This document shows, one piece after another, positions 5,228-63,761 of a DNA stretch of 64,000 bases (position 1 is its first letter; every line of letters starts with the position of its first letter). Origin of the DNA: Levilactobacillus brevis (GTDB taxonomy: Bacteria; Bacillota; Bacilli; Lactobacillales; Lactobacillaceae); contig CP032931.1 in the NCBI GenBank assembly GCA_003666485.1, forward strand, positions 1,054,001 to 1,118,000, written 5' to 3'. The translations under genes were made by a program, and so were the position numbers. Under the pieces are notes generated by a model. The model did not search any database and was not told the origin of the DNA. It worked only from the letters and a program-made list of their open reading frames with translations.

Positions 5228-5256
5228 GTTTGACTTGATTAACTGAACAGCATGTG

Positions 5257-5285: not shown

Positions 5286-5381
5286 CGCGTTGTCATGCGG
5301 GGTGATAGCCTTCAACTAAAACGGATGGTTGAACGAATTGATTCAGTGCAAACAACATTTAACCAGCAGTTACGTCTCTCA

Positions 5382-5410: not shown

Positions 5411-5462
5411 GAATAGAGCACGCTTTTACAATTCTCAATTCTGGAAGGTCGTTTACCTACAT

Positions 5463-47072: not shown

Positions 47073-47195
47073 TTCTACCCGTACGGACAAGAATAACTTA
47101 AAATCACAAAAAAGCGCTATTGGTAGTACAAAAAAGGATAATCTTAACAAGATATTGTGGACCCAGCGCGGAAAAAAATGATAAGATGGAAACCT

Positions 47196-47209
47196 GGAAA
47201 ACGGTTTCA
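47196..47209. promoter_or_regulatory. Possible cre site in the ECF operon leader
   Basis: GGAAAACGGTTTCA matches the loose cre consensus except at the first base, and GAAACC/GGTTTC around it can form a hairpin. It lies downstream of the promoter, where CcpA can act as a roadblock. Confidence 0.35.
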
Positions 47210-47231
47210 AGAAAGCGGGTGGCAAGAGACT

Positions 47232-48128
47232 ATGCAGGTTGGTATCTTTGATGAAATGACTTTTTTCAGCCGGTTACACCCGTTGGTGGCGGCTGGTTAC
47301 TTCGTTGAACTCTTCACATTACTGCTGATCTTTAACCACTTACTGCTGACACTGGTCCTTTTCGCCAGCCTGTGTGGGTTGTGTGGCTGGTATTTTAACC
47401 GACAAAAGGTTTGGGGCACGCTCAAAGGGGTCGGGTCACTGATGGCGCTGATCTGGGCGTTCAACGTGGTGTTGAATCAGACCGGGACCCATGCTTTGTG
47501 GGTGGGTCATTTGGGTGGCTTGACATTTCGCGTGACCCAGACCGCCGTCTTGTATGGGCTGACCATGGCGCTGTCACTGGGTGGTATGATTCTGGCATTC
47601 GTCCTGTTCAATGGGGTGATCACCACGCCTAAGCTCAGCTATCTCTTGTTTCCGGTGGTGCCACGGCTGGCAATGCTCCTGACGATTTCACTGCGGATGG
47701 TCAATCTCTTCACGCAAAAGTTTCGGCGGCTGGTCATGCTGCAAAAGACCCGTGGCGTCGTGGTCGGCGAGGGTTCCTGGCGACTGCGATTGCAGAAGAC
47801 CGGGCAGCTTTTGCGCGTCCTGTTGATCGATTCGGTCTCTTCAGCCATGGAGACGGCCGTGTTGATGGAAGCGCGCGGCTTTGGCAACAAGAAACGTAGC
47901 CATTACCAAACATATCGTTGGCAGGCGATGGACGGCGCCTTTGGTCTGGTGACCCTGGTCATGTTTGTGCTGGTGATTGGCCTGCGCACGTTGGGCTGGG
48001 GCTGGACCGGTGACATCACACAGTTCACGACGCTAAATGGCGGTGACTGGTGGTTGGCCGGCAGTGTCTTGATTTTTGCAAGTTTACCGTTGATGGGTGA
48101 GGTGGGATACCGCGTATGCGAGAATTGA
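47232..48128 (+). CDS. ECF transporter T component (EcfT-like membrane subunit)
   Basis: A membrane protein of about 298 aa with five or six helices and the two coupling motifs of ECF T subunits in the cytoplasmic region: QKTRGVVVGEG and the well-kept MEARGFGNKK. It transmits ATP hydrolysis from the A subunits to the S component. Start choice is uncertain: ATG 47232, GTG 47157 and ATG 47178 are all in frame, and none has a good ribosome-binding site. The gene overlaps the ATPase gene by 13 nt. Order T-AA-S in one operon makes this a dedicated (group I) importer. Confidence 0.87.
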   Translation: MQVGIFDEMTFFSRLHPLVAAGYFVELFTLLLIFNHLLLTLVLFASLCGLCGWYFNRQKVWGTLKGVGSLMALIWAFNVVLNQTGTHALWVGHLGGLTFRVTQTAVLYGLTMALSLGGMILAFVLFNGVITTPKLSYLLFPVVPRLAMLLTISLRMVNLFTQKFRRLVMLQKTRGVVVGEGSWRLRLQKTGQLLRVLLIDSVSSAMETAVLMEARGFGNKKRSHYQTYRWQAMDGAFGLVTLVMFVLVIGLRTLGWGWTGDITQFTTLNGGDWWLAGSVLIFASLPLMGEVGYRVCEN

Positions 48129-49771
48129 TCAAAAGTGAGCATCTGACCTTTACCTATGCCGGGCAGACGACCCCGACCTTGACGGACGTTTCCCTGCAGA
48201 TCCATGCGGGGGATTTCGTCACGGTCGTGGGGGCGACTGGTAGTGGTAAGACCACGTTGCTCAAGCAATTGAAAAAAGAACTCAAGCCGGCGGGCATCCA
48301 GCAAGGACGAGTGACCTATCAAGGAACACCGGTTGCGGATTTGACCAGCGACGTGAGTGCCCAGCAGTTGGGCTACGTGGCACAGGACCCGCAAGTCCAA
48401 CCCATCATGGCGACGGTGATTGAGGAATTGGCGTTTCCTTTAGAAAATTTAGGGTACTCAACGGCGGCCATGAACGGTCGCATCGCCGAAGTCGCCAATT
48501 TCTTGGGATTAAACCAACTGTTGCATTTGCCAATCGACGACCTGTCTGGCGGCCAATTGCAGCTGGTCAATCTGGCGTCGGTGCTCGCGCTCAAACCACA
48601 GGTCATTCTGTTGGACGAGCCGACCGCACAGTTGGACCCGACCACCGCGCAAAATTTTCTCAATATTTTACAACAGGTGCACGACGAGTTGGCAATTACT
48701 ATCGTGTTGACGGAGCACCGGCTGAACCGGGTGCTGGCGCTGGCCAACCGGATGGTGTTGTTGGAACACGGCCGGTTGACCTACGATGGTCCCGTGTCGG
48801 CGGGACTGGTGCGGATGCAAGCGGACCCGGCGTTGCGGCCATTTGTGCCGGCAGTACCCGCGTTCTTCTTGGATCAGCGGTTGCCGGTCGACGACTTGCC
48901 GCTAACGGTGACGACCGGCCGCCGGATGATTGCCCAGCAGGGTTGGCGGTTTACGGCGGTACCGCCGCAAGCGCCGCGGCCCAACACACCGCCCAGTGAT
49001 TTCAGCTTGACGGCAAGTGGCGTCTCTCTCCGCTACCCAACGACTGGCGACATCCTGCATCAGGTCGACCTAGATGTTAAACCGGGCAGTTGGCTGGCCA
49101 TCATCGGCAAAAATGGGTCTGGCAAATCCACACTACTCAGCGTATTGGCGGGCCTGCGCAAGCCGCAACACGGTAAGGTCAAGCTCGACCAGCACGTGGT
49201 GTGGAAGATGAAAAATGCCGACCGTCTGCAACGACTGAGTTTTCTGTCGCAAAATCCGACGGAACAATTCAGCGGCGACACGGTGACCGAGGAACTGACG
49301 GCGCAGGCCAAGCTTACCGGTGGTGACGGGGCTACGGTGGCCGAACGGGTGACAGCTATGTTGAAGACTTTCCAGCTAACGAAGGTGGCCACACAAAACG
49401 CGTTTGACCTCAGTGGTGGGCAACAGCAGCTGCTGGGGATGGCGTTGGCACTGATCACGAAGCCAGAAGTCCTGTTGCTAGACGAACCGACCAAGGGCCT
49501 GGATCCAGCAACCAAATTGCTGGTGGGCCACGTCTTGCAACAAGCTCACGCGGCTGGGTTGACCCTCATCATGGCGAGTCACGACATGGACTTTTGTGCC
49601 GAGTTTGCCGACGCTTGTACCTTCATGTTTGATGGCCGACTCAATCAACCGCAGCCGACGCGTCAATTCTTCACGGAGAACTTCTTGTCGACGACTGCAG
49701 TCAATCGGCTGGTCCGCCAGCAGGTGCCGAGTGCCTTGTTTAGCCAAGATGTGACCCACGAAACCATTTAA
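48116..49771 (+). CDS. ECF transporter A component, two fused ATPase domains
   Basis: A 551-aa protein with two complete ABC ATPase domains in tandem. Domain 1 has Walker A GATGSGKTT, signature LSGGQLQLVNLASVLAL and Walker B VILLDEPTAQLDP. Domain 2 has Walker A GKNGSGKST, signature LSGGQQQLLGMALALI and Walker B VLLLDEPTKGLDP. This replaces the separate EcfA1/EcfA2 pair and fits YkoD-type dedicated ECF importers. It overlaps the T gene and lies 10 nt before the S gene. Confidence 0.93.
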   Translation: MRELIKSEHLTFTYAGQTTPTLTDVSLQIHAGDFVTVVGATGSGKTTLLKQLKKELKPAGIQQGRVTYQGTPVADLTSDVSAQQLGYVAQDPQVQPIMATVIEELAFPLENLGYSTAAMNGRIAEVANFLGLNQLLHLPIDDLSGGQLQLVNLASVLALKPQVILLDEPTAQLDPTTAQNFLNILQQVHDELAITIVLTEHRLNRVLALANRMVLLEHGRLTYDGPVSAGLVRMQADPALRPFVPAVPAFFLDQRLPVDDLPLTVTTGRRMIAQQGWRFTAVPPQAPRPNTPPSDFSLTASGVSLRYPTTGDILHQVDLDVKPGSWLAIIGKNGSGKSTLLSVLAGLRKPQHGKVKLDQHVVWKMKNADRLQRLSFLSQNPTEQFSGDTVTEELTAQAKLTGGDGATVAERVTAMLKTFQLTKVATQNAFDLSGGQQQLLGMALALITKPEVLLLDEPTKGLDPATKLLVGHVLQQAHAAGLTLIMASHDMDFCAEFADACTFMFDGRLNQPQPTRQFFTENFLSTTAVNRLVRQQVPSALFSQDVTHETI

Positions 49772-49781
49772 GGAGGTGAGA

Positions 49782-50480
49782 ATTATCGAACAGCGTGGCT
49801 GGTGGAAGAGTAGTTGGAATTTAATCGTCCCGGTGGTCTTGATACTGGTATTGCTCGGCGGCATGTTGTTGGTGAAGGGGCATCACTTTATTATCTTTAG
49901 CTTTGCCTGCTTGGCTTGCAGCTTGTTGCCAGCCTACTGGCATTTTGAAAAGCGGCAAATGGGCACGCGACTGCTGGTTTTCTTGGCGGTCATCGTGGCG
50001 TTAGGCGTCATTGGCCGGGTGCCGTTGGCGGCGATTCCCAACGTGCAGTTGACCAGCTTTGTGGTGATCGTCAGTGCCGTCAGCCTGGGACCGGAATTGG
50101 GCTTCGTCTCCGGTTCCATGATGGCGTTGGTCTCGAACCTGTTTTTGGGGCAAGGACCGTGGACGCCGTGGCAAATGTTGGCCTGGGGCCTGATGGGCCT
50201 GACGACTGGATTGCTAGGCCGGACGCAATTGAAGAATAACGTCTGGGTCATGGTCGTCTGGGGAGCCCTGTGGGGATTTTGGTTCGGTTGGATCCTGGAT
50301 CTCTGGTACGCCTTGGCGTATGTACGTCCCTTGCGGCCAGCCAGTTTCTTCCTGTCATTTGCGGCCAGTTTGATGTTTGACGCGATGCACGCCGCAACGA
50401 ATGCAATTAGTTTGTTACTCCTGTACCACCCGTGGCGTAAGCTCATGGACCGTTTAATCACGAAGTACAATATATTATAA
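49782..50480 (+). CDS. ECF transporter S component, predicted corrinoid-specific
   Basis: A membrane protein of about 232 aa with six helices that binds the substrate in an ECF importer. Typical S-component features are the helix start LVFLAVIVALGVIGRVPLAA, SLGPELGFVSGSMMALVSN and FLGQGPWTPWQMLAWGLMGL. I judge it closest to the Cbr-type group predicted for cobalamin, but this is uncertain. The strong AGGAGGTGA site at 49771-49779 is followed at 5 nt by ATT (49782) and at 8 nt by ATC; the only in-frame GTG (49776) lies inside the site. A non-AUG start is therefore likely. Exported proteins and pdu genes follow. Confidence 0.82.
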   Translation: MIEQRGWWKSSWNLIVPVVLILVLLGGMLLVKGHHFIIFSFACLACSLLPAYWHFEKRQMGTRLLVFLAVIVALGVIGRVPLAAIPNVQLTSFVVIVSAVSLGPELGFVSGSMMALVSNLFLGQGPWTPWQMLAWGLMGLTTGLLGRTQLKNNVWVMVVWGALWGFWFGWILDLWYALAYVRPLRPASFFLSFAASLMFDAMHAATNAISLLLLYHPWRKLMDRLITKYNIL

Positions 50481-50495
50481 AAGGGGATATTTTTC

Positions 50496-51545
50496 ATGTT
50501 GAACAATAAGTTAATCGCTGCTTCATTAACCGCCGTTATGGCTTTAGGGGCCGTTGTACCAGTCATGGATGTCAACGCCGCTAGTGTTAAGGTCGCTTCC
50601 AAGAAATCACAAAAGAGTAAGCAAAAGGCGCTCTATACATACGCTAAAAAGATGATGAAACAAAATAAGGATGGGGTCAACGGCAAAGCCAAGATCTTCA
50701 GTAAGTCCGCTTACCCAACCACTGGGGCCGCTGCCGGTTACTCTGATTTCCTGTTAGGCTTGAAGAAGCAAGGCTACAAGTTTACTAAGGCAAACAAAAA
50801 GTTGATCAAGAAGAACTTGGTTATCAACAGCAAGAGTGACCCAGCAACTTTGGCAACGGCAATCATTGGCTTACAAGCAGTTGGTTTGAACCCAACGAAG
50901 TACAAGCCAGCTGGTGCCAAGAAGAACATGAACTTGGTTAATAAGTTATACAAGGAATCCATGACCAAACAAACGGTTAACGTTCAAAGTCAAGCATTGG
51001 TTGCCGTTTCATCTAACAAGACATTCAAGAAGCCTAGCAAGGCGAAATTCTCTAAGAATTCTTTGAGCTTGAAGATTGCTAAGAACAAGCAATCCAACAA
51101 TGGCTGGTCTTACAACAACACGGTTGCCAGTGTCGATAGTGATACGACGGCCGCTGCAGTTAACGCCATGATGTTGGGTAAGAGCAAGAACAAGACGGTC
51201 AAGAAGGCAGAAGTTGCTGGCCGGAACTACTTGAAGAAGAACATCTACAAGAGTGGTGCCTTTGGGTTCACTTACGCTGGTAAGGAAAATCCTAACGCGA
51301 ACTCCACTGCTGAAGGCATCTTGGCATTATCGACGACTAAGACGTCCTTTAAGTTTGTGAACAAGAAGGCTATCAAGAAGGGCCAAACGGCAACGCCTTT
51401 GAAGGCAATGTTCAGCTACGTTAAGGCCGATGGCTCCATCAAGGATGCTTACAGCATGGTCTTGGCTTACGGTCAAGTGAGTGTTGCTGCTAGTGCTGCC
51501 CACAACGGTGTTTACACGAAGAAGTTAGTTTATTCCTTCAAGTAA
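50496..51545 (+). CDS. Secreted alpha/alpha-toroid-like protein, transcobalamin alpha-domain-like
   Basis: A 349-aa exported protein: signal peptide MLNNKLIAASLTAVMALGAV...DVNA, then about 320 residues rich in Lys, Ala, Asn. Repeated helical segments of prenyltransferase/squalene-cyclase type are visible: DPATLATAIIGLQAVGLNP, GWSYNNTVASVDSDTTAAAV, GAFGFTYAGKENPNANSTAE and DAYSMVLAYGQVSVAASA. Animal intrinsic factor and transcobalamin use such an alpha6/alpha6 barrel as their large domain. The gene lies 15 nt after the ECF S gene and before the DUF4430 gene, so a role in surface capture of the imported ligand is likely (inference). No cell-wall anchor is seen. Confidence 0.75.
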   Translation: MLNNKLIAASLTAVMALGAVVPVMDVNAASVKVASKKSQKSKQKALYTYAKKMMKQNKDGVNGKAKIFSKSAYPTTGAAAGYSDFLLGLKKQGYKFTKANKKLIKKNLVINSKSDPATLATAIIGLQAVGLNPTKYKPAGAKKNMNLVNKLYKESMTKQTVNVQSQALVAVSSNKTFKKPSKAKFSKNSLSLKIAKNKQSNNGWSYNNTVASVDSDTTAAAVNAMMLGKSKNKTVKKAEVAGRNYLKKNIYKSGAFGFTYAGKENPNANSTAEGILALSTTKTSFKFVNKKAIKKGQTATPLKAMFSYVKADGSIKDAYSMVLAYGQVSVAASAAHNGVYTKKLVYSFK

Positions 51546-51573
51546 TTCAGTTCAGAGTTAAGGAGATTTTTGC

Positions 51574-52278
51574 ATGAAAAGGACTAGATGGATTATCGCA
51601 GCAGTAGTCGTCACAATATTGGTCATTGGTGGCGCGCTGGCCTTCCAGCAGAGCCGTCAGAGTCAAGCGGCCGAGCCAGATACGGCTGCGGTCGCCACTA
51701 GCTCGTCGGCGTCAACGTCGACCTCATCATCGGCTGCGACTAGTAGTTCCGTTGCCAAGAAGAAGCATCAACGGTCATCTTCATCTAAGAAAACAACGAC
51801 GAAAACGACCTCAGCCTCGTCAGCCACAAAGCCGTCAGCGCAGCGTCAGTCATCGACAGCGAGCTCGGTAGCAGCGAGTTCGTCAGCTGCCAAGTCGGTG
51901 ACGAAGCGGTCGAAAAAGGCGAAGACGACCAAGCACCAGGCGGCGAAAACCAAGCCGGCTGTCAAAAAGACGCGGTCTGCAGCGGAAGCGCATTTGGTCG
52001 TGAGTGGGTACAAGAAGACCTTCTTCGATGGGCAAGTGAAGCTGACGAGTAAGTCGAACGCCTTCACCGTGCTCCAGTCGTCCAAACTGAAGCTCGTTGC
52101 TCAACAGGGTGCGGCCGTGTACGTTAGCAGCATCAACGGCCTTGCCCAAAACGACATCAAGGCAGGGAGCGGCTGGAAGTACCGGGTCAACGGCAAATTC
52201 ATTGACAAGGCCGCTAACCTGAAGTCGGTTAAGAACGGTGATAAGGTGCATTGGTACTTTACGACTAAGGGGTATTGA
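51574..52278 (+). CDS. Membrane-anchored DUF4430 protein, transcobalamin beta-domain-like
   Basis: A 234-aa protein with one N-terminal membrane helix (WIIAAVVVTILVIGGALAF), a long Ser/Thr/Lys/Ala-rich linker (about residues 28-135) suited to spanning the cell wall, and a C-terminal DUF4430 domain. The domain is recognised from AAVYVSSINGLAQND and GSGWKYRVNGKFIDKAANL followed by VKNGDKVHWYFTTKGY. This small beta domain is, as far as I recall, the same fold as the C-terminal domain of intrinsic factor and transcobalamin. It follows the toroid-like protein gene by 28 nt, so the two may form a split binding protein. A terminator follows. Confidence 0.82.
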   Translation: MKRTRWIIAAVVVTILVIGGALAFQQSRQSQAAEPDTAAVATSSSASTSTSSSAATSSSVAKKKHQRSSSSKKTTTKTTSASSATKPSAQRQSSTASSVAASSSAAKSVTKRSKKAKTTKHQAAKTKPAVKKTRSAAEAHLVVSGYKKTFFDGQVKLTSKSNAFTVLQSSKLKLVAQQGAAVYVSSINGLAQNDIKAGSGWKYRVNGKFIDKAANLKSVKNGDKVHWYFTTKGY

Positions 52279-52290
52279 TGTGGTGATTTA

Positions 52291-52329
52291 ACAGGTATGC
52301 AGTGCGATATGCTGTGTACCTGTTTTTTT
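52291..52329 (+). terminator. Terminator of the ECF/DUF4430 operon
   Basis: ACAGGTA pairs with TACCTGT (about 52291-52323), with CAG/CTG continuing inside, then seven T. Confidence 0.85.
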
Positions 52330-52535
52330 GTTATAAAAATTAATAAAATACTAATTTTTGGAGTAGTTGGTGGTCAGGATAGTTTTATTAACATTAAATT
52401 GAACTAGTAAATGCGATTATAAGTGTGTTAGAGAAGTTAAAGGACAAAATAGTTATTCGGATTGTAAAAAATGGATAGGGGGGTGTGTGGTAAACTACGC
52501 TTGTTCAATTAATAATTTAAGGGCAGGTGTTTTAT

Positions 52536-53243
52536 ATGAGTGGCTTTATTGGCGAGTTTTTTGGGACAATGATTTTAATCGTACTAGGTGCAGGCACAGG
52601 TGCGAGTATTAATTTGAAACAGACGTATGCAAAGGGTTCGAATTGGACCTATGTCAGTCTTGCCTGGGGTTTGGCAGTTACGATGGGTGTTTACGTTGGT
52701 GGTGCGTTGGGATCAGACGGTCATTTGAATCCGGCAGTTACGATTGGATTCGCTTTATTTGGTTTCTTCCCCTGGGGTGAAGTTGTTCCCTATCTATTAG
52801 GACAGTTTCTAGGTGCGTTTGTTGGTGCGGTAATTGTTATCATTCAATTTTATCCACATTTTAAAGAGACACCTGATGATGCATCTGGCAATACTGTTGG
52901 TATATTTGCAACTCGTCCAGCAATCAATAATCCAGTATTTAATTTTCTATCTGAAACCATTGCTACTTGGGCGTTTGTCTTCATCTTATTAAACTTAGGT
53001 GACTTTTCACAAGGGCTTAAGCCGTTTATCGTAGGCTTATTAATTGCTGTAGTTGGGATGGGACTAGGTACAACGACTGGATTTGCGTTGAATCCAGCAC
53101 GTGACTGGGGACCTCGGCTTGCTCATACGCTAATGCCAATTCCACACAAGTCATCTAGCGAATGGTCATATGCTTGGGTACCGATGTGTGGCCCTATCGT
53201 TGGTGGTATCTTAGCAGCTGGCTTACAAGCACTGATTAAATGA
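52536..53243 (+). CDS. pduF: Propanediol/glycerol diffusion facilitator (MIP family)
   Basis: A 235-aa aquaglyceroporin with six helices. Both NPA signatures are intact: HLNPAVTIGFALFG and FALNPARDWGPRLAH, the Asp after the second NPAR being typical of glycerol facilitators. It lets 1,2-propanediol or glycerol enter the cell for the dehydratase. ATG 52536 follows GGGCAGG; an in-frame GTG at 52527 is rejected. It stands between the ECF operon and the PocR-like gene, with its own upstream AT-rich region. A perfect cre site and a bidirectional terminator follow. Confidence 0.92.
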   Translation: MSGFIGEFFGTMILIVLGAGTGASINLKQTYAKGSNWTYVSLAWGLAVTMGVYVGGALGSDGHLNPAVTIGFALFGFFPWGEVVPYLLGQFLGAFVGAVIVIIQFYPHFKETPDDASGNTVGIFATRPAINNPVFNFLSETIATWAFVFILLNLGDFSQGLKPFIVGLLIAVVGMGLGTTTGFALNPARDWGPRLAHTLMPIPHKSSSEWSYAWVPMCGPIVGGILAAGLQALIK

Positions 53244-53365: not shown

Positions 53366-54463
53366 TCAATTATCGTTTCCAGTGTAGACCCATTGAATAA
53401 CTGACTTGTTTTCAACTGAAATTTCATCCGCAGGTTGAGTGGGTTGCTGACCGTCTACGGTATAGATCCAGCCACGATCGCCGCCTGCGTCATTGAGCTC
53501 ACCAATGCTGTTGACATAGATGGCGCCTTCTGACGATTCAGTTTTCCAACCGATATGATTATTTTCAAAGTAGTTCTTAGAAGCGTCAATGATGCTTCCT
53601 TGCTCGTTCCAATTTAAGTCACGAGGAATCGTGTAAATCTTTTTAATTGTATGGTTACGTTGTCGATACTCAGAGGGCGTCATACCAGTTTTTTTCTTGA
53701 AAATTTTGGTGAAATAGCTGGTTTGTGCAAAGCCGATTTGGGTAGAGATTTGACTAATTGGAGTCAAGGTAAGTAATAGTTTTTCTTGAGCCAGAGCTAT
53801 TTTTTGATTATTAACGTATTCCACAAAATTAACGTGTAGATATTTTTTAAATAAACGACTGAGATATGAAGGAGATAGAAAAGCATGCTGAGCGACCTCA
53901 TTTAATGAAATGGGGTGTTGAATATTCTTTCGAATGTAATCAATTGCAGAGGTCACGCTGTGAAAGACCTCATCATTATCAATGGGGTGTTCTTTTGCTG
54001 TCGTTGATATCGTAGAGTTCGCAAATTTTGAGAGCTCATTGGTAGAGTTCTTTCCCATAGTGATGAAGGCATTTAGAGCACCAATCTGGCTGGCTTGATC
54101 AGAAGTCAATGGTTCCCAGACACTGATTCTCCCCAAGGCCTTTTCAGTAAAAATTTGACGCATGGCATCTTCTAAGTAAGCACGTGAGAGAAACAATCGT
54201 TTCTTTGAAACGGTAGAACTATCACACATGATAGCTCCCCAGAGCTGGATATTTCGACTCACAGGTAATAGCGCGTATTCATCAAATCCTTGGTGAGCTA
54301 AATTGTCTTCAATGACAGATTGATTAACGTAAACAAAATCGTCCTTTAAAAGGATGCCAGTGAAATCAAAAAAGATGGTATTAATTTGAGTTAGACTGGT
54401 GAACTTCGCTAATGAGTGTGCAAGTTTCCGATAATCTTCCTGACTTGGTGAATAAGTGGGCAT
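53366..54463 (-). CDS. pocR: PocR-like AraC family activator with C-terminal DUF4430-like domain
   Basis: A 365-aa regulator. Residues 1-150 form a PocR-type sensory domain (FTSLTQINTIFFDFTGILL, VSRNIQLWGAIMC). An AraC double helix-turn-helix follows (IDYIRKNIQHPISLNEVAQH, FLSPSYLSRLFKKY and IGFAQTSYFTKIFKKKTGM). After it, about 85 extra residues end in a DUF4430-like segment: GAIYVNSIGELNDAGGDRGW, IYTVDGQQPTQPADEIS and KSVIQWVYTG. This lines up with the exported DUF4430 protein at 51574. PocR activates pdu (and B12) genes in enteric bacteria; here it is divergent from pduA. ATG 54463 follows GGGGGA. The symbol is by position and domain. Confidence 0.88.
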   Translation of the reverse strand: MPTYSPSQEDYRKLAHSLAKFTSLTQINTIFFDFTGILLKDDFVYVNQSVIEDNLAHQGFDEYALLPVSRNIQLWGAIMCDSSTVSKKRLFLSRAYLEDAMRQIFTEKALGRISVWEPLTSDQASQIGALNAFITMGKNSTNELSKFANSTISTTAKEHPIDNDEVFHSVTSAIDYIRKNIQHPISLNEVAQHAFLSPSYLSRLFKKYLHVNFVEYVNNQKIALAQEKLLLTLTPISQISTQIGFAQTSYFTKIFKKKTGMTPSEYRQRNHTIKKIYTIPRDLNWNEQGSIIDASKNYFENNHIGWKTESSEGAIYVNSIGELNDAGGDRGWIYTVDGQQPTQPADEISVENKSVIQWVYTGNDN

Positions 54464-54663
54464 GTTTATTTCCCCCAATAATTGAATTTTCCGAAAGAAG
54501 TTATTTACCAAAACATATTGTCAAAATAGTAATGAATACGCTACCACAGAATTATTGTAGGGGAAATTTAGCATAACTGCAAGTGGAAATTTACAGTTTC
54601 TTTGTAATATTTTGAGCTTTTTATGACTTAACCACCGATTCCCACTTTTTTGTCACAAAAAGT
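54464..54663. other. Left part of the pocR-pduA intergenic region
   Basis: AT-rich divergent control region, no gene. It likely holds the leftward pocR promoter; no element in it is clear enough to mark. Confidence 0.4.
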
Positions 54664-54717
54664 ACTATTTTGCGATAAATAGTATTAGTGAGGCTTTGTA
54701 CAATGTAAGCGTTTTAA
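54664..54717 (+). promoter_or_regulatory. pdu operon promoter with activator-type palindrome and cre site
   Basis: ACTATTT (54664-54670) and AAATAGT (54677-54683) form a palindrome just upstream of a -10 TACAAT (54699-54704) that lacks a good -35, as expected for an activator-dependent promoter. The cre site TGTAAGCGTTTTAA (54704-54717) matches 13 of 14 positions and covers the start site, so sugar should repress pdu. Confidence 0.65.
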
Positions 54718-54764
54718 GAGAACGGGCGGTAATTACTGTCCAGCCAAAAATTGGAGGTTCTATC

Positions 54765-55043
54765 ATGGAACAAGAAGCACTTGGTTTAATCGAAACAAAA
54801 GGTTTAGTTGCTGCTATTGAAGCAGCTGATGCAATGGTTAAGGCTGCTAACGTTGACTTAGTTGGTCAAGAAAAGATTGGCCACGGGTTAGTTACTACCA
54901 TGGTTCGTGGCGACGTTGGTGCCGTCAAAGCCGCTGTTGATGCTGGAGTTTCTGCCGCAGAAAATATTGGTGAGGTTCTTTCCAATTACGTTATTCCACG
55001 TCCACATACAGATGTTGAAAAAATTCTGCCAACCAAAAAATAA
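54765..55043 (+). CDS. pduA: Microcompartment hexamer shell protein PduA
   Basis: A 92-aa BMC-domain protein forming hexameric facets of the propanediol microcompartment: [35 protein letters not shown] and [14 protein letters not shown]. The pore residue normally Ser40 (KIGSGL) is His40 here (KIGHGL), while PduJ keeps Ser. The ATG at 54765 follows TTGGAGG; the frame from 54696 runs over the promoter and is rejected. It is the first gene of the operon. Confidence 0.95.
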
Positions 55044-55061
55044 GTAAGCAGGTAATTTCAG

Positions 55062-55874
55062 ATGGCGAATCAGCAGTTAATGGATCAAATCGTCAAAGAA
55101 CTTCTGCGTCACGGGGTAACGGTTAAGTCGGCCTCGCAGTCATCGGGAGGAAAAACAATGGATAACTTTTTGAATTCAACTAGTGTTGTCCCAGAATTTG
55201 TTGGGGCTTCTGAGACTGGGGACACAATTGGTATGTGTATTCCCAGTGTGGATAAATTATTACTTGATAATTTACACGTAAACAAACGTTTTACAGTTAT
55301 TGGTGTACTTAGTTCACGGACCGGTGCTGGTCCACAAATCATGGCTATGGATGAAGCGGTTAAGGCAACTAATACAGAAGTTATTGATGTCGAAATGCCA
55401 CGGGATACAAAGGGTGGCGCCGGACATGGTGTCTTACTTCTGATTGGTGGGTATGATCCATCTGATGTTCGCTCAGCCATTCAAGTCGCACTTGATAATC
55501 TTAGCCGGACATTCGGCGATGTTTATAACTCTGCAGCAGGGCATCTAGAATTACAATTTACTGCCCGTGCAGCTGGTGCTTGCCACCTTGCCTTTGGCGC
55601 TCCAGAAGGAAAAGCTTACGGATTAATTTGTGGTGCTCCTTCAGGAATTGGTGTCGTTATGGCAGATACGGCTATTAAGACAGCTGGTGTCGATGTCTTG
55701 TCCTTTGCTTCACCTGGCCACGGTACAAGTTTTTCCAATGAAGGTATCGTTCACATCAGCGGAGATTCCGGAGCTGTTCGCCAAGCAGTTATCGCTGGTC
55801 GTGAGGTTGGCTTAAAACTTTTAGCTCAATTAGGCGAAAAGCCAGTAAACGATTTTCCATCGTACATTCACTAA
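55062..55874 (+). CDS. pduB: Microcompartment trimer shell protein PduB (and internal start PduB')
   Basis: A 270-aa protein with two BMC domains that forms pseudo-hexameric trimers of the shell: EFVGASETGDTIGMCIPSVD, LSSRTGAGPQIMAMDEAVKA and AAGHLELQFTARAAGACHLA. A second ribosome-binding site GGGAGG at 55145-55150 precedes ATG 55158 (residue 33). A shorter PduB' would start there, as known in Salmonella where both forms exist. The N-terminal extension links shell and cargo in that system. Confidence 0.94.
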   Translation: MANQQLMDQIVKELLRHGVTVKSASQSSGGKTMDNFLNSTSVVPEFVGASETGDTIGMCIPSVDKLLLDNLHVNKRFTVIGVLSSRTGAGPQIMAMDEAVKATNTEVIDVEMPRDTKGGAGHGVLLLIGGYDPSDVRSAIQVALDNLSRTFGDVYNSAAGHLELQFTARAAGACHLAFGAPEGKAYGLICGAPSGIGVVMADTAIKTAGVDVLSFASPGHGTSFSNEGIVHISGDSGAVRQAVIAGREVGLKLLAQLGEKPVNDFPSYIH

Positions 55875-55890
55875 AAAGGGGGATATTTAA

Positions 55891-57567
55891 TTGAAACGTC
55901 AAAAAAGATTTGAAGAACTTGAAAAGCGACCAATCCATTTAGATGGTTTCGTTAAAGAATGGCCTGAAGAAGGATTCGTCGCTATGATGGGTCCTAATGA
56001 TCCCAAGCCTAGCATCAAGATTGAAAATGGCATCGTCACGGAATTAGATGAAAAGAAGCGTGACGACTTTGACCTGATTGATCTGTACATTGCTAATTAC
56101 GGAATTAAGTTAGAGAATGCAGAAAAAGTTATGGCAATGGATTCAACTAAGATTGCTAATATGCTGTGTGACCCCAACGTTTCCCGTAAGGATATTATCG
56201 AGATCACGACCGCTATGACGCCTGCAAAAGCCGAAGAAGTAATTAGCAAGTTAAACTTTGCTGAAATGATTATGGCTACGCAAAAGATGCGTCCACGTCG
56301 GACTCCTGCTACGCAATGCCACGTTACTAACATTCGTGACAATCCTGTTCAAATTGCTGCTGATGCCGCTGATGCTGCATTGCGTGGATTCCCTGAACAA
56401 GAAACGACGACTGCCGTTGCACGTTACGCTCCGCTGAATGCGATTGCCTTAATGGTCGGTGCACAGACTGGTCGTCCAGGTGTTATCACGCAATGCTCTG
56501 TTGAAGAAGCGCTTGAATTAAGCTTAGGGATGCGTGGATTTACCGGATATGCTGAAACTATTTCCGTTTATGGTACAGATAAGGTCTTCACTGATGGTGA
56601 TGATACGCCTTGGTCCAAAGGTTTCTTGGCTTCCTGCTATGCTTCTCGTGGACTTAAGATGCGGTTTACATCAGGTTCTGGTTCCGAAGTAATGATGGGA
56701 TATACCGAAGGCAAATCAATGCTTTACCTGGAATCACGTTGTATCTTCATTACCAAGGCTTCTGGTGTACAAGGCCTTCAAAACGGTGGTGTAAGTTGTA
56801 TCGGAATTCCTGGATCAGTACCAGCTGGTATTCGTTCTGTTTTAGGCGAAAACCTCTTGTGCATGATGCTTGATTTGGAATGTGCTTCAGCTAACGACCA
56901 AGCATTCTCTCATTCAGATATGCGTCGTACTGAACGTTTGATGGGGCAATTTATTGCTGGGACGGATTACATTTCTTCTGGTTACTCATCAACGCCAAAC
57001 TATGATAACACCTTTGCTGGTTCAAACACTGATGCAATGGATTATGATGATTACTATGTCATGGAACGTGATTTAGGTGTTAATGGTGGGATTCACCCTG
57101 TAGATGAAGAAACCATCATCAAATCACGGAACAAGGCTGCTAAGTCCTTGCAAGCTGTCTTTGACGATCTTGGACTACCAAAGATTACTGATGAAGAAGT
57201 AGAGGCGGCTACATACGCTAATACTTCAGCTGACATGCCAGACCGTAACATGGTTGAAGATATGAAGGCTGCTCAAGAGTTAATGGATCGTGGTACGACT
57301 GGTGTCGATATTGTTAAGGCACTTTACAACCATGGTTACAAAGATACTGCTCAGGCCGTCTTAGATCTGCAGAAGCAAAAGGTCTGTGGTGACTTCTTAC
57401 AAACATCAGCTATTTTTGATGAAAAGTGGAATGTTATTTCTGCAGTCAATGATGCTAACGATTACCAAGGTCCTGGTACCGGTTACCGCTTGGAAGAAGA
57501 CAAGGACGAATGGGAACGGATCAAGAACTTGCCGTTTGCTATCGATCCACAGAATATGCAGCTTTAG
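55891..57567 (+). CDS. pduC: B12-dependent propanediol/glycerol dehydratase large subunit
   Basis: The 558-aa alpha subunit holds the active site where adenosylcobalamin turns 1,2-propanediol into propionaldehyde or glycerol into 3-hydroxypropionaldehyde. It is near identical in pattern to known PduC/GldA proteins: KRFEELEKRPIHLDGFVKEW, RRTPATQCHVTNIRDNPVQI, SGSGSEVMMGYTEGKSMLY and FSHSDMRRTERLMGQF. The start codon is TTG 55891 after AAAGGGGG. Diol and glycerol dehydratase types cannot be distinguished from this reading. Confidence 0.97.
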   Translation: MKRQKRFEELEKRPIHLDGFVKEWPEEGFVAMMGPNDPKPSIKIENGIVTELDEKKRDDFDLIDLYIANYGIKLENAEKVMAMDSTKIANMLCDPNVSRKDIIEITTAMTPAKAEEVISKLNFAEMIMATQKMRPRRTPATQCHVTNIRDNPVQIAADAADAALRGFPEQETTTAVARYAPLNAIALMVGAQTGRPGVITQCSVEEALELSLGMRGFTGYAETISVYGTDKVFTDGDDTPWSKGFLASCYASRGLKMRFTSGSGSEVMMGYTEGKSMLYLESRCIFITKASGVQGLQNGGVSCIGIPGSVPAGIRSVLGENLLCMMLDLECASANDQAFSHSDMRRTERLMGQFIAGTDYISSGYSSTPNYDNTFAGSNTDAMDYDDYYVMERDLGVNGGIHPVDEETIIKSRNKAAKSLQAVFDDLGLPKITDEEVEAATYANTSADMPDRNMVEDMKAAQELMDRGTTGVDIVKALYNHGYKDTAQAVLDLQKQKVCGDFLQTSAIFDEKWNVISAVNDANDYQGPGTGYRLEEDKDEWERIKNLPFAIDPQNMQL

Positions 57568-57588
57568 GCCGAAAAGGGGGTTAACACT

Positions 57589-58281
57589 GTGGCTCAAGAA
57601 ATTGATGAAAGTTTATTACGCGATATTATTAGAAACGTTATTGCTGAAACAAAGAATGTTGACACACCAATCTCGTTCAAAGATGATTCAACTCAATCAT
57701 CGAGCAGTCAAGCACAGCCTGACGAAGCTAAATCAGTAGATTGGTTTAAGCATGTCGGTGTTGCTAAGCCAGGTTATTCTCGCGACGAAGTAGTTATTGC
57801 CGTAGCACCTGCGTTTGCAGAAGTTTTGGATCATAACTTAACTGGGATTAGCCATAAGGAAATCTTACGTCAAGTCATTGCTGGGATTGAAGAAGAAGGA
57901 TTGAAAGCACGGGTTGTCAAGATTTACCGGACATCTGATGTATCATTCTGTGGTGCTGAAGGTGACCACTTATCTGGCTCAGGTATTGCCATTGCTATTC
58001 AATCCAAGGGTACGACGATCATCCATCAAAAGGATCAAGAACCTTTGTCCAACTTGGAACTCTTCCCACAAGCACCAGTGATTGATGGAGATACGTACCG
58101 AGCAATTGGTAAGAACGCTGCTGAATATGCTAAGGGCATGTCACCAAGTCCTGTTCCAACGGTTAATGATCAAATGGCACGTGTTCAGTATCAAGCCCTG
58201 TCAGCTTTGATGCATATCAAAGAAACTAAGCAAGTTGTCATGGGAAAACCTGCAGAACAGATTGAAGTTAACTTTAACTAG
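57589..58281 (+). CDS. pduD: Propanediol/glycerol dehydratase medium subunit
   Basis: The 230-aa beta subunit of the dehydratase. The N-terminus ([17 protein letters not shown]) is an amphipathic helix of the kind that targets cargo into the shell, joined by a Ser/Gln/Asp-rich linker to the core, which begins near [20 protein letters not shown]. The start is GTG 57589 after AAAGGGGG. It lies 21 nt after pduC. Confidence 0.95.
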
Positions 58282-58293
58282 GAGGAACCGGTA

Positions 58294-58812
58294 ATGAGCG
58301 AAATTGATGATTTAGTAGCAAAAATCGTTCAACAAATCGGTGACACAGGTGCAACTGCGACAACGACTGCACCAAAGTCATCTGTGAAGAACGAAAAGGA
58401 ATTGACTAAACAAGATTATCCACTTTACAGCAAGCACCCAGAACTTGTTCATTCACCTTCTGGTAAAGGGCTAAAGGATATCACATTGGATAATATCTTA
58501 AGCGATAAGATTAAGTCTAATGATCTTCGTATCACGCCTGATACGCTGCGTCTTCAAGGCGAAGTTGCTAAGGATGCTGGCCGAGACGCTATTCAGCGTA
58601 ACTTTCAGCGAGCTGCCGAATTAACGGCAATTCCAGATGATCGGTTATTGGAAATGTACAATGCTTTACGGCCATACCGTTCATCAAAGGCTGAATTGTT
58701 AGCGATTTCAGCAGAACTGAAAGATAAGTACAATGCACCAGTTAATGCAGGTTGGTTTGAACAAGCTGCGGACTTCTATGAATCCCGTAAGAAACTTAAG
58801 GGCGATAACTAG
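58294..58812 (+). CDS. pduE: Propanediol/glycerol dehydratase small subunit
   Basis: The 172-aa gamma subunit. The N-terminus (SEIDDLVAKIVQQIGDTG) also resembles an encapsulation helix; the core has DYPLYSKHPELVHSPSGKGL and FQRAAELTAIPDDRLLEMYN, typical of PduE. AGGAGG precedes ATG 58294. A 187-bp gap separates it from pduG, although the other early genes are tightly packed. Confidence 0.95.
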   Translation: MSEIDDLVAKIVQQIGDTGATATTTAPKSSVKNEKELTKQDYPLYSKHPELVHSPSGKGLKDITLDNILSDKIKSNDLRITPDTLRLQGEVAKDAGRDAIQRNFQRAAELTAIPDDRLLEMYNALRPYRSSKAELLAISAELKDKYNAPVNAGWFEQAADFYESRKKLKGDN

Positions 58813-58999
58813 AAGATTAATTGGTTTTCGGAATAATGAGTGGTTCCAGAATTAGCCAGGAATTAGTTGCGCACTTTGCCTAGTAGTATGGTGCCATAGG
58901 GAATTTGATGTTAGCTAAGCTGGTATCCCGCAGATTTAGTTGGTCTACAACTAACTGTGGCCAGATGGTACCACAATACTGAACGTTAGGAGTCTTCAT
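58813..58999 (+). other. Gap between pduE and pduG with hairpins
   Basis: No gene. An exact hairpin TTAGTTG (58936-58942) / CAACTAA (58948-58954) and a second stem TGTGG/CCACA just after it lie upstream of pduG. There is no T run, so it is not an ordinary terminator. It may set mRNA processing or stability. Confidence 0.45.
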
Positions 59000-60838
59000 A
59001 TGCAAAAGGTGATAGGTGTCGACATTGGAAATTCGTCGACAGAAGTGGCCTTAGCGGATATTTCGGACCAAGGTGACGTGAATTTTATCAATTCGGATAT
59101 TGCGGAAACGACCGGTATCAAAGGGACAACGCAAAACCTAATTGGTATAAAAAAAGCAGTGACACAAGTTCTGAACAAGAGCAATTTATCATTGTCTGAC
59201 GTCGATTTGATTCGAATCAATGAGGCGACACCAGTTATTGGTGATGTAGCGATGGAGACAATCACGGAGACGGTTATTACAGAGTCTACGATGATCGGTC
59301 ACAATCCAAACACACCAGGTGGAGTCGGAACTGGGTCTGGTTATACCGTAGGCCTCCTAAGCTTATTAAACGAAACTGATAAAGAACGACCGTACATTGT
59401 CTTAGTGCCCGCAAAGATTGATTTTGAGGATGCCGCACGATTGATTAATTTATACCATGATAATGGATATAAAATTACAGCGGCAATTCTTCAAAATGAT
59501 GATGGCGTGTTAGTAGATAATCGATTGAAGAACAAGATACCGATTGTTGATGAAGTAGCGTTGCTAGACAAAGTGCCGTTGGGGATGATGGCCGGTGTTG
59601 AAGTAGCTGGCAAAGGGCAAGTTATTTCTCAGCTATCTAATCCGTATGGGATTGCAACACTATTTGATTTGACTGCTGAGGAGACGAAGAACATTGTGCC
59701 AGTTTCTCGGGCATTGATTGGGAACCGTTCAGCAGTTGTAATCAAAACGCCACAAGGTGATGTCAAAGCCAGAGTTATTCCGGCTGGTAGTATTCAGATT
59801 GAAGGTCGAAAGGATTCTGACAAAGTTAACGTTGCCGCTGGTGCGGACGCTATTATGTCAAAGATCAATCAATTTGACCGTATCCAAAATATTACTGGTG
59901 AGTCAGGAACTAATGTTGGTGGGATGTTGGAAAAAGTACGTCAGACGATGGCGGACTTAACTAATAAACAAAACCATGACATTGCTATTCAAGATTTGCT
60001 GGCTGTAGATACTGCTGTTCCAGTGAAGGTTCAAGGTGGTTTAGCTGGTGAGTTCTCAACCGAACAAGCCGTCGGAATTGCTGCCATGGTTAAGTCAGAT
60101 CACTTACAAATGCAACAAATTGCTGATGCGATTCAAGATGAAATCAACATTCCTGTTGAAATTGGTGGGGCCGAAGCTGAGGCAGCTATTCTTGGAGCGT
60201 TGACTACACCAGGAACAACTAAGCCTATTGCTATCTTAGACTTGGGTGCTGGGTCCACGGATGCTTCGATTATCAATAAACAGAACGATATTGTTGCTAT
60301 TCATCTGGCCGGAGCCGGTGATATGGTCACGATGATTATTAACTCAGAGTTAGGTTTGGATGATGTTTACTTAGCTGAGGATATTAAAAAGTATCCGCTA
60401 GCACGGGTTGAAAACTTATTCCAGATTCGACACGAAGATGGCGCCGTTGAATTCTTTGAAGAGCCATTACCATCTGAAATTTTTGCTCGGACGGTTGTTA
60501 TTAAACCGGATGGGTATGTGCCAATTCCAGGTAATATGGCGATTGAAAAGGTAAAACAAGTGCGACAGAGTGCTAAAAAACGGGTATTTGTTGAAAATGC
60601 GCGTCGAGCACTGCAACACGTTAGTCCTACTGGAAATATTCGTGATATTCCGTTTGTTGTTATCGTTGGGGGATCGGCTTTGGATTTTGAAATTCCACAA
60701 TTAGTAACGGACGAACTTTCTCACTACAGCTTGGTTGCCGGAAGAGGGAATATTCGAACTACCGAAGGGCCTCGAAACGCCGTTGCTACTGGGTTAATCC
60801 TAGCTTACGCTCGAGAGAGAAGGGAAGCTAATGGCTAG
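59000..60838 (+). CDS. pduG: Dehydratase reactivase large subunit
   Basis: A 612-aa chaperone-like ATPase that releases damaged cobalamin from inactivated dehydratase so fresh cofactor can bind. The actin/Hsp70-like phosphate motifs are visible in VIGVDIGNSSTEVALADI at the start and ILDLGAGSTDASIINKQND in the second half; PIVDEVALLDKVPLGMMAG is family-typical. TAGGAG precedes ATG 59000. Its last codons overlap the pduH start. Confidence 0.96.
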   Translation: MQKVIGVDIGNSSTEVALADISDQGDVNFINSDIAETTGIKGTTQNLIGIKKAVTQVLNKSNLSLSDVDLIRINEATPVIGDVAMETITETVITESTMIGHNPNTPGGVGTGSGYTVGLLSLLNETDKERPYIVLVPAKIDFEDAARLINLYHDNGYKITAAILQNDDGVLVDNRLKNKIPIVDEVALLDKVPLGMMAGVEVAGKGQVISQLSNPYGIATLFDLTAEETKNIVPVSRALIGNRSAVVIKTPQGDVKARVIPAGSIQIEGRKDSDKVNVAAGADAIMSKINQFDRIQNITGESGTNVGGMLEKVRQTMADLTNKQNHDIAIQDLLAVDTAVPVKVQGGLAGEFSTEQAVGIAAMVKSDHLQMQQIADAIQDEINIPVEIGGAEAEAAILGALTTPGTTKPIAILDLGAGSTDASIINKQNDIVAIHLAGAGDMVTMIINSELGLDDVYLAEDIKKYPLARVENLFQIRHEDGAVEFFEEPLPSEIFARTVVIKPDGYVPIPGNMAIEKVKQVRQSAKKRVFVENARRALQHVSPTGNIRDIPFVVIVGGSALDFEIPQLVTDELSHYSLVAGRGNIRTTEGPRNAVATGLILAYARERREANG

Positions 60839-61184
60839 CATGACAGACAGGCCGGCAATACTTATTGCTCTGCCTACGGAAAATGATGTTATCCCTACAG
60901 TCTTACAACCGCTTTTTAACGGCATTGAAGAGGAAGCAATTCCTATTGATTCTAAAGTGATTGATGAAGGAGACATCACAGCCCGAGCCTATCAAGCCGC
61001 TCTAGCTTCTCGGTTATCAGTAGGAATTGGGTATGACGACCAGCAAGTCGTGGTGCATTACAAGAATCTGAAACCTGATCAACCGCTATTTGTGGTCTCG
61101 ATTGATTCTGCTGAAAGGTTACGTCGATTGGGTGCCAATGCTGCTCGATTAGTAAAGGGAGTACCCTTTAAGAAATTAGTGTGA
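60831..61184 (+). CDS. pduH: Dehydratase reactivase small subunit
   Basis: A 117-aa subunit with the PduH pattern: ILIALPTENDVIPTVLQPLF, GIGYDDQQVVVHYKNL and RRLGANAARLVKGVPFKKL. It resembles the dehydratase beta subunit fold and swaps with it during reactivation. It starts inside the end of pduG (8-nt overlap). ATG 60840 (MTDRPAILIAL) is an alternative start three codons later. Confidence 0.95.
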   Translation: MASMTDRPAILIALPTENDVIPTVLQPLFNGIEEEAIPIDSKVIDEGDITARAYQAALASRLSVGIGYDDQQVVVHYKNLKPDQPLFVVSIDSAERLRRLGANAARLVKGVPFKKLV

Positions 61185-61200
61185 TAGGTGGTTAAGTAAG

Positions 61201-61722
61201 ATGGATGCAATTGGATATCTGGAAACTACTGGGCTACCTAGCGCCATTGTTGCAGCAGATAAAATGCTGAAAACTGCAGCAATTGGACTAATTGGTTTAG
61301 AAAATACTAAAGGTGGCGGTTGGATTACCGTTGGAATTCATGGCGATGTTGCTGCGGTTTCAGTAGCAATTGAAACAGGACGTCTGATGGTTGGAGATGC
61401 ATACGTTGGATCAACGGTCTTGGCAAATCCATCTATGGGGGTTGCTGATCGGCAACCTAAGCTGATGTTTACCGAGGAGACAAACCCGACTGTTGTTGAG
61501 ACAACGCCGACTGAATCCCAAACAGATAATTCAGCACCAGTTGAAGTATTTAAGCCAACCCCAAGTAAAACGACTAGTGAAAAACAGACTTCGCAAGCAG
61601 TTACGCAACCGAAGAAGGCAAAGGTAACTTGTAACCTTTGTGGTGATCCAGATTGTCCTCGCAAGCTTGGTGAGCCTCGGAAGAAATGTATTCACTACTC
61701 AGAGTTATTTGGGAAAAAGTAA
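61201..61722 (+). CDS. pduK: Microcompartment shell protein PduK (BMC domain plus Cys-rich tail)
   Basis: A 173-aa protein: an N-terminal BMC domain (AIGYLETTGLPSAIVAADKM, ITVGIHGDVAAVSVAIETG), a Thr/Pro/Gln-rich linker (about residues 95-135), and a C-terminal Cys cluster CNLCGDPDCPRKLGEPRKKC likely to bind Zn or an Fe-S centre. This domain order is that of PduK, a minor shell protein. Unlike the Salmonella order, K precedes J here. Confidence 0.92.
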   Translation: MDAIGYLETTGLPSAIVAADKMLKTAAIGLIGLENTKGGGWITVGIHGDVAAVSVAIETGRLMVGDAYVGSTVLANPSMGVADRQPKLMFTEETNPTVVETTPTESQTDNSAPVEVFKPTPSKTTSEKQTSQAVTQPKKAKVTCNLCGDPDCPRKLGEPRKKCIHYSELFGKK

Positions 61723-61751
61723 CCCGAATTTAAATTTAGGAGGAAATTATT

Positions 61752-62042
61752 ATGAATAACGCTTTAGGAATGATTGAAACTAAGGGACTTGTTGCTTCGA
61801 TTGAAGCTGCCGATGCTATGGTTAAGGCTGCTAACGTTGAAATGATGGGTCAAGAAAAAATTGGTAGTGGACTGGTAACTGTTATGGTTCGCGGCGATGT
61901 TGGCGCTGTTAAGGCTGCTGTCGATGCAGGTGTTGCTGCTGCTGAAAACATTGGCGAAGTTATGAGTTCATACGTTATTCCTCGTCCACACTCTGAAGTG
62001 GAAAACATTTTACCAAAGACTAACAAGCCAGCTGCTAAATAG
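61752..62042 (+). CDS. pduJ: Microcompartment hexamer shell protein PduJ
   Basis: A 96-aa BMC protein very similar to Pdu[41 protein letters not shown] and [18 protein letters not shown]. The pore Ser is kept (Ser39). AGGAGG precedes ATG 61752. The name is by similarity and position, since PduA and PduJ differ little. A 292-bp gap follows. Confidence 0.92.
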
Positions 62043-62334
62043 TTTTAATAGTATCTGTGCTTAAACTGGTAGTATTAATCGTCTTGCCGAGTGTTTGATT
62101 GACTTTACACGCGGTAAGTACGACTTTGAGTCGAAGAGTCTCAGACCTCTTTAAATATTTATGATTGACATCAAGGATTGTTTAAATGACTTGCAGGATG
62201 ATATGACAGTCGTAAGGTCGAGATTTTAAGGCTTAAAGTCGTGCCTATCGCGTTCTAATCTATCAGTGATTGGTAAGTGTCAGGTTACCTACTAATTTTA
62301 AGTGTGATTCTAAATAGTGAGGAAGGTATAACTG
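62043..62334 (+). other. Gap between pduJ and pduL, no gene
   Basis: This 292-bp AT-rich stretch has no credible gene and no T-run terminator. A short hairpin CGACT-TTG-AGTCG (62121-62133) is visible. TTGACA at 62165-62170 has no well-spaced -10. It may hold an internal promoter or a processing site. Confidence 0.4.
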
Positions 62335-62961: not shown

Positions 62962-62979
62962 TGTAAAAGAGATAGGTTG

Positions 62980-63746: not shown

Positions 63747-63761
63747 GAGGTAGATGGCGAC

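Follow-up and report, generated by a model that had tools for sequence, protein, structure and literature searches.

To our knowledge, importers of the energy-coupling factor (ECF) class lack a soluble binding protein, and their substrates are bound only by the membrane S component. The closest described importer is ECF-CbrT of Lactobacillus delbrueckii, deposited as 6FNP; CbrT carries both cobalamin and cobinamide, and the published gene cluster is nrdJ-cbrS-cbrT-pduO (PMC5997447). Vertebrate transcobalamins bear a DUF4430 domain at their C-terminus, as stated in a second source (PMC4350170), and a third places a DUF4430 protein next to rtpR and contains, as a label given by a database, “Additional lipoprotein component of putative cobalamin ECF transporter” (PMC9963975). 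Here, a stretch of 64,000 nucleotides of Levilactobacillus brevis (contig CP032931.1, positions 1,054,001 to 1,118,000), called the window, was analysed for an operon that combines an ECF importer with an exported alpha/alpha-toroid protein and a membrane-tethered DUF4430 protein, beside the pdu genes. With a probability of about 0.8, this is an operon for the import of corrinoids (vitamin B12 or cobinamide), in which a surface clamp of the transcobalamin/intrinsic factor type, split into two proteins, feeds an importer of the CbrT type.

The five genes form a single operon (47157-52278) in the order T, A-A, S, toroid, DUF4430, all on the + strand and with intergenic gaps of -13, 4, 15, and 28 nt. 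The ECF module of a T component and two ATPase domains is present and dedicated, the latter being fused (A-A), and the toroid and DUF4430 proteins have 349 and 234 amino acids (aa), respectively. All open reading frames (ORFs) lie where a preliminary description, made from the sequence alone, had placed them, its starting point at 49782 falling just inside the S gene; the continuation of the T-AA-S operon into the two surface-protein genes was confirmed by the ORFs, their families, and the gaps. Three features were recognised by eye: a signal peptide on the toroid protein and, on the DUF4430 protein, a hydrophobic N-terminus and a Ser-rich linker.

The DUF4430 Protein and the Beta Domain of B12 Carriers

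The DUF4430 domain announced in the preliminary description is indeed present. A model of residues 140-234, built from 44 sequences, reached a predicted local distance difference test (pLDDT) value of 93.1 and a predicted template modelling (pTM) score of 0.84. With Foldseek, the first-ranked match was the isolated human transcobalamin beta domain (5no0, E 3e-4, TM 0.75), and rank 6 was 5np4, which according to its PDB title is the human transcobalamin beta domain with cyanocobalamin. When the model was compared by VIA-align, 14 of the best 15 entries were transcobalamin, haptocorrin or intrinsic factor, with Z values of 11.9-14.2 over 89-92 of the 95 residues, the best unrelated row having a Z of 7.2. 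The remaining entry, 3u7z (Z 12.8), is bacterial and of the same fold. A profile of 25 DUF4430 domains reached residues 350-433 of human Transcobalamin-1 (E 0.0011), tied as best with 3u7z among the 24 matches listed. The premise on which the original idea was built, that the small beta domain of the carriers is DUF4430-like, is thus borne out by both model and profile. Judged from the predicted structure, the match to the carrier beta domain is specific, unlike that of the toroid protein.

The Toroid Protein and the Alpha Domain

The toroid protein has no match of its own in Pfam, NCBIfam or PDB sequences, and the fold called in the preliminary description was therefore invisible to family searches. 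An AlphaFold2 (AF2) model, built from 33 sequences (pLDDT 84.3, pTM 0.85), shows a mostly helical ring, residues 1-28 being of low confidence. This agrees with the alpha/alpha-toroid type proposed for the protein, as do the toroid Pfam matches of relatives, some of them just under the cut-off and four proteins above it. Structure prediction of the two proteins separately thus gave both a helical barrel and the transcobalamin beta-domain fold. Relatives of the toroid protein (93%) occur in L. angrenensis and L. suantsaiihabitans.

Terpene cyclases were on top in a Foldseek search with the toroid model, and neither intrinsic factor nor transcobalamin was among the best 50 matches listed. A VIA-align comparison that covered 985 chains placed human intrinsic factor (2pmv_B) at rank 45 (Z 19.1, 238/267 residues, root-mean-square deviation (rmsd) 3.3, 15% identity) and rat transcobalamin (8ixt) at rank 48 (Z 19.1, 245 residues, rmsd 3.4, 15% identity). 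A profile of lactobacillus toroids found only squalene-cyclase-like chains among PDB sequences (best 0.0049). The modelled fold fits the alpha domain of the carriers but is non-specific.

Homologues of the toroid gene are labelled “fucose-binding lectin II” in six of seven plasmid records. This label was rejected as meaningless on the basis of the window protein, the one that was scanned, which matches no lectin family.

The S Component and the Substrate of the Importer

The best match of the S component among PDB sequences is 6fnp_A (E 7e-11, residues 64-227), followed by a runner-up at 0.52, which assigns the importer to the B12 type. Its family labels read differently: in Pfam it is ECF-ribofla_trS, and NCBIfam puts the folate S family first, with 29.6 bits where the cut-off is 60. 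On such labels one could suppose that another cofactor (heme, folate, riboflavin) is imported and that the B12 context is coincidental; however, the margin by which CbrT leads, the transcobalamin beta-domain fold, and the cobalamin riboswitches of related loci (see below) make this highly improbable.

In the surveyed loci, RTPR, DUF4430, CbrT-like S and PduO genes are closely grouped, and the make-up of the published nrdJ-cbrS-cbrT-pduO cluster resembles them. The cbrS gene, judged by its position, therefore probably encodes a DUF4430 protein.

Distribution among Lactobacilli

All family counts refer to the same set of 201 Lactobacillaceae genomes (G labels, G000 being the source genome; L labels denote loci); these genomes are related, though the Fisher test treats them as independent. 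The toroid was found in 14, DUF4430 in 53, PduC in 18, RTPR in 34, CobS in 12, and QueG in 32 of them. RTPR, PduC or QueG was present in 51 of the 53 DUF4430 genomes vs 10 of the 148 others. The remaining two DUF4430 genomes (G027 and G064) have an NrdJ-type match each, separated from a DUF4430 by 529 and 575 nt. The profile used for it, TIGR02504, was applied to these two alone within the set and therefore does not enter the 2x2 table; it is not fully specific, matching 11 of 14 control genomes and exceeding its cut-off in seven. Thus, among the 11 DUF4430 genomes without RTPR or PduC, QueG accounts for nine and the NrdJ-type match for the last two, EutB being found in 0/11. PF02310 B12-binding proteins were detected in 0/201 Lactobacillaceae, vs 12 of 14 control genomes. 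The proposed check on co-occurrence, whether the genes turn up in genomes lacking B12-dependent enzymes, therefore came out in favour of the idea: no DUF4430 genome in the set is left without a match for such an enzyme. QueG without DUF4430, PduC or RTPR was seen in eight genomes (G014, G018, G052, G083, G110, G134, G181, and G200).

All 14 toroid genomes also have DUF4430; eight have PduC, 13 RTPR or PduC, and four CobS, the genome without RTPR or PduC being G027, with its NrdJ-type match. Conversely, no toroid was detected in 39 of the 53 DUF4430 genomes. Of 36 cases of RTPR or NrdJ, 16 have a DUF4430 no more than 2 kb away, and among the 30 DUF4430 loci L027-L056, 17 have a CbrT-like S component at up to 1.5 kb. 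For PduC, a DUF4430 is found within 20 kb in 12 of 18 cases, in several of which it is that of a regulator (see below). The toroid operon is not always adjacent to pdu, the distance being about 370 kb in G084. Within the window's own genus (eight genomes), three have DUF4430 and all three have PduC; the other five gave no match to toroid, DUF4430, PduC or RTPR, and QueG was found in 0/8.

In a survey of operons, genome contigs were scanned with two short conserved patterns, a search that reaches close relatives only. It returned 53 toroid loci, all from lactobacilli, chiefly Levilactobacillus, Lentilactobacillus, and Secundilactobacillus. The exact order T, A-A, S, toroid, DUF4430 was kept in 35 of them, so that the five-gene arrangement is not due to chance, and T and S occurred anywhere in the stretch in 41. 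Genes for pdu, PduO, EutP, CobS or CobC were found in 31 of the loci and none of these in 22. Toroid genes also follow large DUF5776-related surface proteins (L067, L069, L070, L072, L120-L122, L124, L125, and L129), and no ECF T and S genes were recognised in the stretches of these ten loci; the large proteins of L005 and L067 combine, in Pfam, DUF5776 with a C-terminal DUF4430.

Plasmid-borne toroid genes (seven records) come from Levilactobacillus brevis, Lactiplantibacillus plantarum, Lentilactobacillus kefiri, and Lactobacillus kefiranofaciens. Three plasmids were inspected and all carry DUF4430, those of L. brevis and L. plantarum with cobS and that of L. kefiranofaciens with eutP and a BMC gene. 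Plasmid loci L004, L005, and L006 correspond to NZ_CP140263, NZ_CP145112, and NZ_CP013155, with cobS and an extra ECF S in L005 and L006.

Plasmid and chromosomal relatives have as neighbours cobS, a gene for a CobC-like phosphatase, a further ECF S gene and one for an AIRS-like protein. Together with the transport of cobinamide by CbrT, this suggests that the substrate might be a corrinoid precursor, namely cobinamide or cobyrate, or else a cobamide other than B12, feeding salvage by CobU/CobS and the alpha-ribazole genes. This would be a narrower form of the corrinoid clamp, with which it is compatible; since such salvage genes are rarely nearby (CobS or CobC in 8/53 loci, and CobS in only the four toroid genomes given above), it is considered rather unlikely.

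Single-Chain Relatives and Cobalamin Riboswitches in Other Bacillota

Outside the lactobacilli, PF14478 (the DUF4430 family) was found in 91 of 299 Bacillota genomes. The family of eukaryotic cobalamin-binding proteins, PF01122, matched in three of 269 genomes in a search of the phylum, none of them over the cut-off. Twenty non-lactobacillus loci were chosen, three for these weak matches and the rest for a large DUF4430 ORF or a pair of genes; none was chosen for a riboswitch. An ECF T component is present in 16 of the 20 stretches. Iterated profiles seeded by the lactobacillus toroid, for which drift is a risk with such repeats, found toroid domains in 19, and the curated alpha/alpha-toroid cut-offs of Pfam were passed by L171, L173, L178, and L167.

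In relatives such as L163-L167 and L170, toroid and DUF4430 are joined in one chain. All seven proteins tested are SLH-anchored and six of them have DUF4430, L176 having toroid and SLH without DUF4430. Weak PF01122 matches below the cut-off occur in L163 and L164 (4.4e-4 and 4.6e-4); in L163, the match (736-910) overlaps the toroid region (710-946) and is followed downstream by DUF4430, which is the layout of transcobalamin. In L171, an ECF S component resembling CbrT shares a single ORF (3613-5826, - strand) with an alpha/alpha toroid and SLH (S-layer) repeats. An S-layer protein of 1769 aa with two toroids and four DUF4430 stretches precedes an ECF operon in L178 (3803-9112, + strand).

A cobalamin riboswitch (RF00174) was located at most 1 kb upstream, on the same strand, of a toroid/DUF4430 gene in 17 of the 20 selected loci, the distances being computed by hand. 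Two of the other three loci, L176 and L179, are cut by a nearby contig end, and L163 has none in about 800 nt upstream. There are 24 such riboswitches over the 343,798 bases of the 20 loci, the count being confined to these selected loci.

Regulators and the Genome's Own B12 Synthesis

The features of the window are collected in Table 1; the names of pdu operon genes other than PduC were assigned by eye. A scan for hairpins such as the one closing the import operon gave eight terminator-like matches in the region vs 9.2 in shuffles, that is, no excess over shuffled sequence.

Table 1. Import operon and neighbouring features in the window.
Feature	Position	Strand	Evidence
ECF transporter T component	47157-48128	+	PF02361 CbiQ, 1.4e-9
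Fused ECF A-A' ATPase	48116-49771	+	two ABC_tran domains; TIGR04520 323.4 bits, cut-off 315
ECF S component, CbrT type (predicted corrinoid-specific)	49776-50480	+	6fnp_A 7e-11; PF07155/PF12822
Exported alpha/alpha-toroid protein, putative counterpart of the transcobalamin/intrinsic factor alpha domain	50496-51545	+	AF2 model, VIA-align
Tethered protein: hydrophobic N-terminus, Ser-rich linker, DUF4430 at residues 162-230	51574-52278	+	PF14478 1.8e-17
Intrinsic-terminator-like hairpin, operon end	52290-52324	+	15 pairs, T tail
MIP channel (PduF/glycerol-facilitator type), neighbour	52527-53243	+	PF00230 3.5e-40
AraC/PocR-like regulator beside pdu, DUF4430 at residues 307-377	53366-54511	-	PF12833 5.4e-21, PF14478 7e-10
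pdu operon (BMC shell proteins, PduC, PduG, PduO, others), runs beyond window end	54696-64000	+	
Diol dehydratase PduC	55891-57567	+	PF02286 over cut-off, window 55894-57552 (contig 1109894-1111552)

AraC/PocR-like regulators of pdu or cob genes with a C-terminal DUF4430 occur in the window, in L076 (11637-12731, - strand), and in L189-L197, and a second regulator of this kind closes the cob cluster of the source genome. Nine regulators picked for DUF4430-like tails all have both domains, eight of them over the DUF4430 cut-off. Other AraC-type ORFs in the loci have no DUF4430; one of them, of 312 aa and adjacent to the L. brevis ATCC 14869 operon, does not match the tail pattern used. Counted as DUF4430 matches in ORFs of 365-392 aa, such regulators are present in nine genomes of the set (G000, G084, G088, G103, G105, G111, G153, G162, and G199), all among the 18 with PduC. 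The domain may be a cytoplasmic corrinoid sensor.

About 45-75 kb downstream of the window, the 3.1-Mb source genome has a B12 cluster with CbiA, B, D, F, H, L, M, and P over their cut-offs, as well as a PduO-type adenosyltransferase over its cut-off and CobU just under its own (154 vs 161 bits); further genes were read by eye. The ECF S-like and AIRS-like genes of this cluster (L185, L186, L076; C1:1164000-1192000) resemble what we take to be alpha-ribazole salvage genes. The genome also encodes CobS and, further on, an RTPR. Since the genome can be expected to make B12, the importer would represent scavenging added to synthesis rather than the sole supply; in G084 and G111, where PduC and toroid are present and CobS is missing, all B12 may have to come from import.

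The notion that the imported corrinoid supplies the pdu enzymes therefore stands in part: pdu is adjacent, but this can be at most a share of the role, given the B12 cluster, the RTPR, and operons distant from pdu. A role in pdu only was rejected, as five toroid genomes have RTPR and no PduC, and G027 has the NrdJ-type match only.

Weighing the Split-Clamp Interpretation

The claim of a split bacterial binder of the transcobalamin type is supported by the folds, the CbrT-type S component, the riboswitch-linked single chains, and the co-occurrence with B12 enzymes, its weaker side being the non-specific toroid fold. Several observations weigh against it. Terpene cyclases outscore the B12 carriers on the toroid model (Z up to 22.9 by VIA-align), and a broad toroid profile matched squalene-hopene cyclase among PDB sequences at 3.4e-32 and intrinsic factor at 0.028. 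PF01122 gave no match to the window toroid, even at E 1. RF00174 at its gathering score was absent from the window, the cob cluster of the source genome, and all lactobacillus stretches scanned. Twelve of the 53 toroid loci have no ECF T and S inside the stretch examined. Ten genomes with PduC or QueG have no DUF4430; in two of them PduC occurs together with CobS, and in the other eight QueG is the only enzyme. Toroid and QueG are not associated (3/14 vs 29/187). Finally, import is not obviously needed in a genome with its own Cbi genes and a CobU-like gene.

The cyclase-like sequence of the toroid is also what would be expected if only the DUF4430 protein bound corrinoid and the toroid protein were a separate surface protein, such as a wall scaffold or a binder of sugars or isoprenoid-like compounds, that shares the operon. 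The many DUF4430 genomes without a detected toroid imply that DUF4430 works alone there, and the CbrT-like S genes close to DUF4430 and the isolated human beta domain of 5np4 point in the same direction. Nevertheless, DUF4430 accompanies the toroid in every toroid genome, the two are fused in single chains under cobalamin riboswitches, and in one ORF a toroid is even joined to a CbrT-like S component; a toroid unrelated to corrinoid is accordingly regarded as improbable, and the two-protein clamp is preferred.

Proposed Mechanism and Implications

We propose that the two proteins bind corrinoid jointly and hand it over to the S component. The toroid protein would be the alpha domain, and the tethered DUF4430 protein the beta domain, of a split carrier; the corrinoid would be clamped between them at the cell surface, the tether holding the complex at the membrane. 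The CbrT-type S component, driven by the ECF module of T and fused A-A, would then take the corrinoid over for ATP-driven import. In the source genome, the imported corrinoid would add to what the cell makes itself, for use by diol dehydratase and RTPR. Where the toroid is absent, DUF4430 alone may suffice, as 5np4 would allow.

The operon and its predicted folds suggest that a clamp of the animal type serves some bacteria for the capture of extracellular B12. More tentatively, and perhaps with somewhat less than an even chance of being right, the two-domain B12 clamp of animals would be a surface-capture device of Bacillota ECF importers, which lactobacilli have split and whose beta domain they have reused as the corrinoid sensor of the pdu AraC activator; the latter step is suggested because no recognisable cobalamin riboswitch was found at the scanned loci. 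This would offer a possible route of B12 sensing to lactobacilli without such a riboswitch at these loci. The DUF4430 family gains a concrete candidate function, and a tie between mammalian B12 carriers and a bacterial system would make the origin of the carriers testable. The capture of B12 bears on how fermenting and gut bacteria compete, and the system also exists in plasmid-borne copies.

Comparison with Known Systems

No paper on a bacterial surface binder of the transcobalamin type, or on DUF4430 regulators, was recognised in the open-licence literature, subscription papers lying mostly outside that search. The nearest counterparts of the two surface proteins are mammalian transcobalamin, intrinsic factor, and haptocorrin, which they resemble in the predicted folds of both domains, the DUF4430 profile also reaching Transcobalamin-1. 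Unlike these carriers, the window proteins are encoded by two separate genes and belong to a bacterial surface, without receptor-mediated endocytosis, and the toroid sequence is unrecognisable as PF01122. A single chain, as in the transcobalamin family, is found in relatives such as L163-L167 and L170, whereas the window has two ORFs; because of the separate chains and the toroid without a PF01122 match, the window proteins, strictly speaking, do not belong to that family.

The DUF4430 model also shares its fold with a solved bacterial domain, 3u7z (RUMGNA_00854 of Ruminococcus gnavus), which is annotated differently, as a “putative metal binding protein”. The proposed capture of B12 outside the membrane followed by its ATP-driven import is reminiscent of BtuFCD; BtuF, however, is a binding protein of the periplasm whose fold is unrelated, and the window system uses an ECF importer instead. 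With CbrT of L. delbrueckii the S component is homologous, but the window operon brings its own T and A-A genes plus the extra toroid protein. In comparison with the substrate binding by S alone that is ascribed to ECF importers, it would add dedicated extracellular proteins resembling a capture pair.

The labelled lipoprotein indicates that some protein of such a neighbourhood had already been assigned to a putative cobalamin ECF system; in the available part of that source it is a label only, without a toroid, a link to transcobalamin or a mechanism (PMC9963975). B12 transport by CbrT and the lipoprotein label are thus already known, and what appears to be new is a transcobalamin-like capture pair on a CbrT-type importer.

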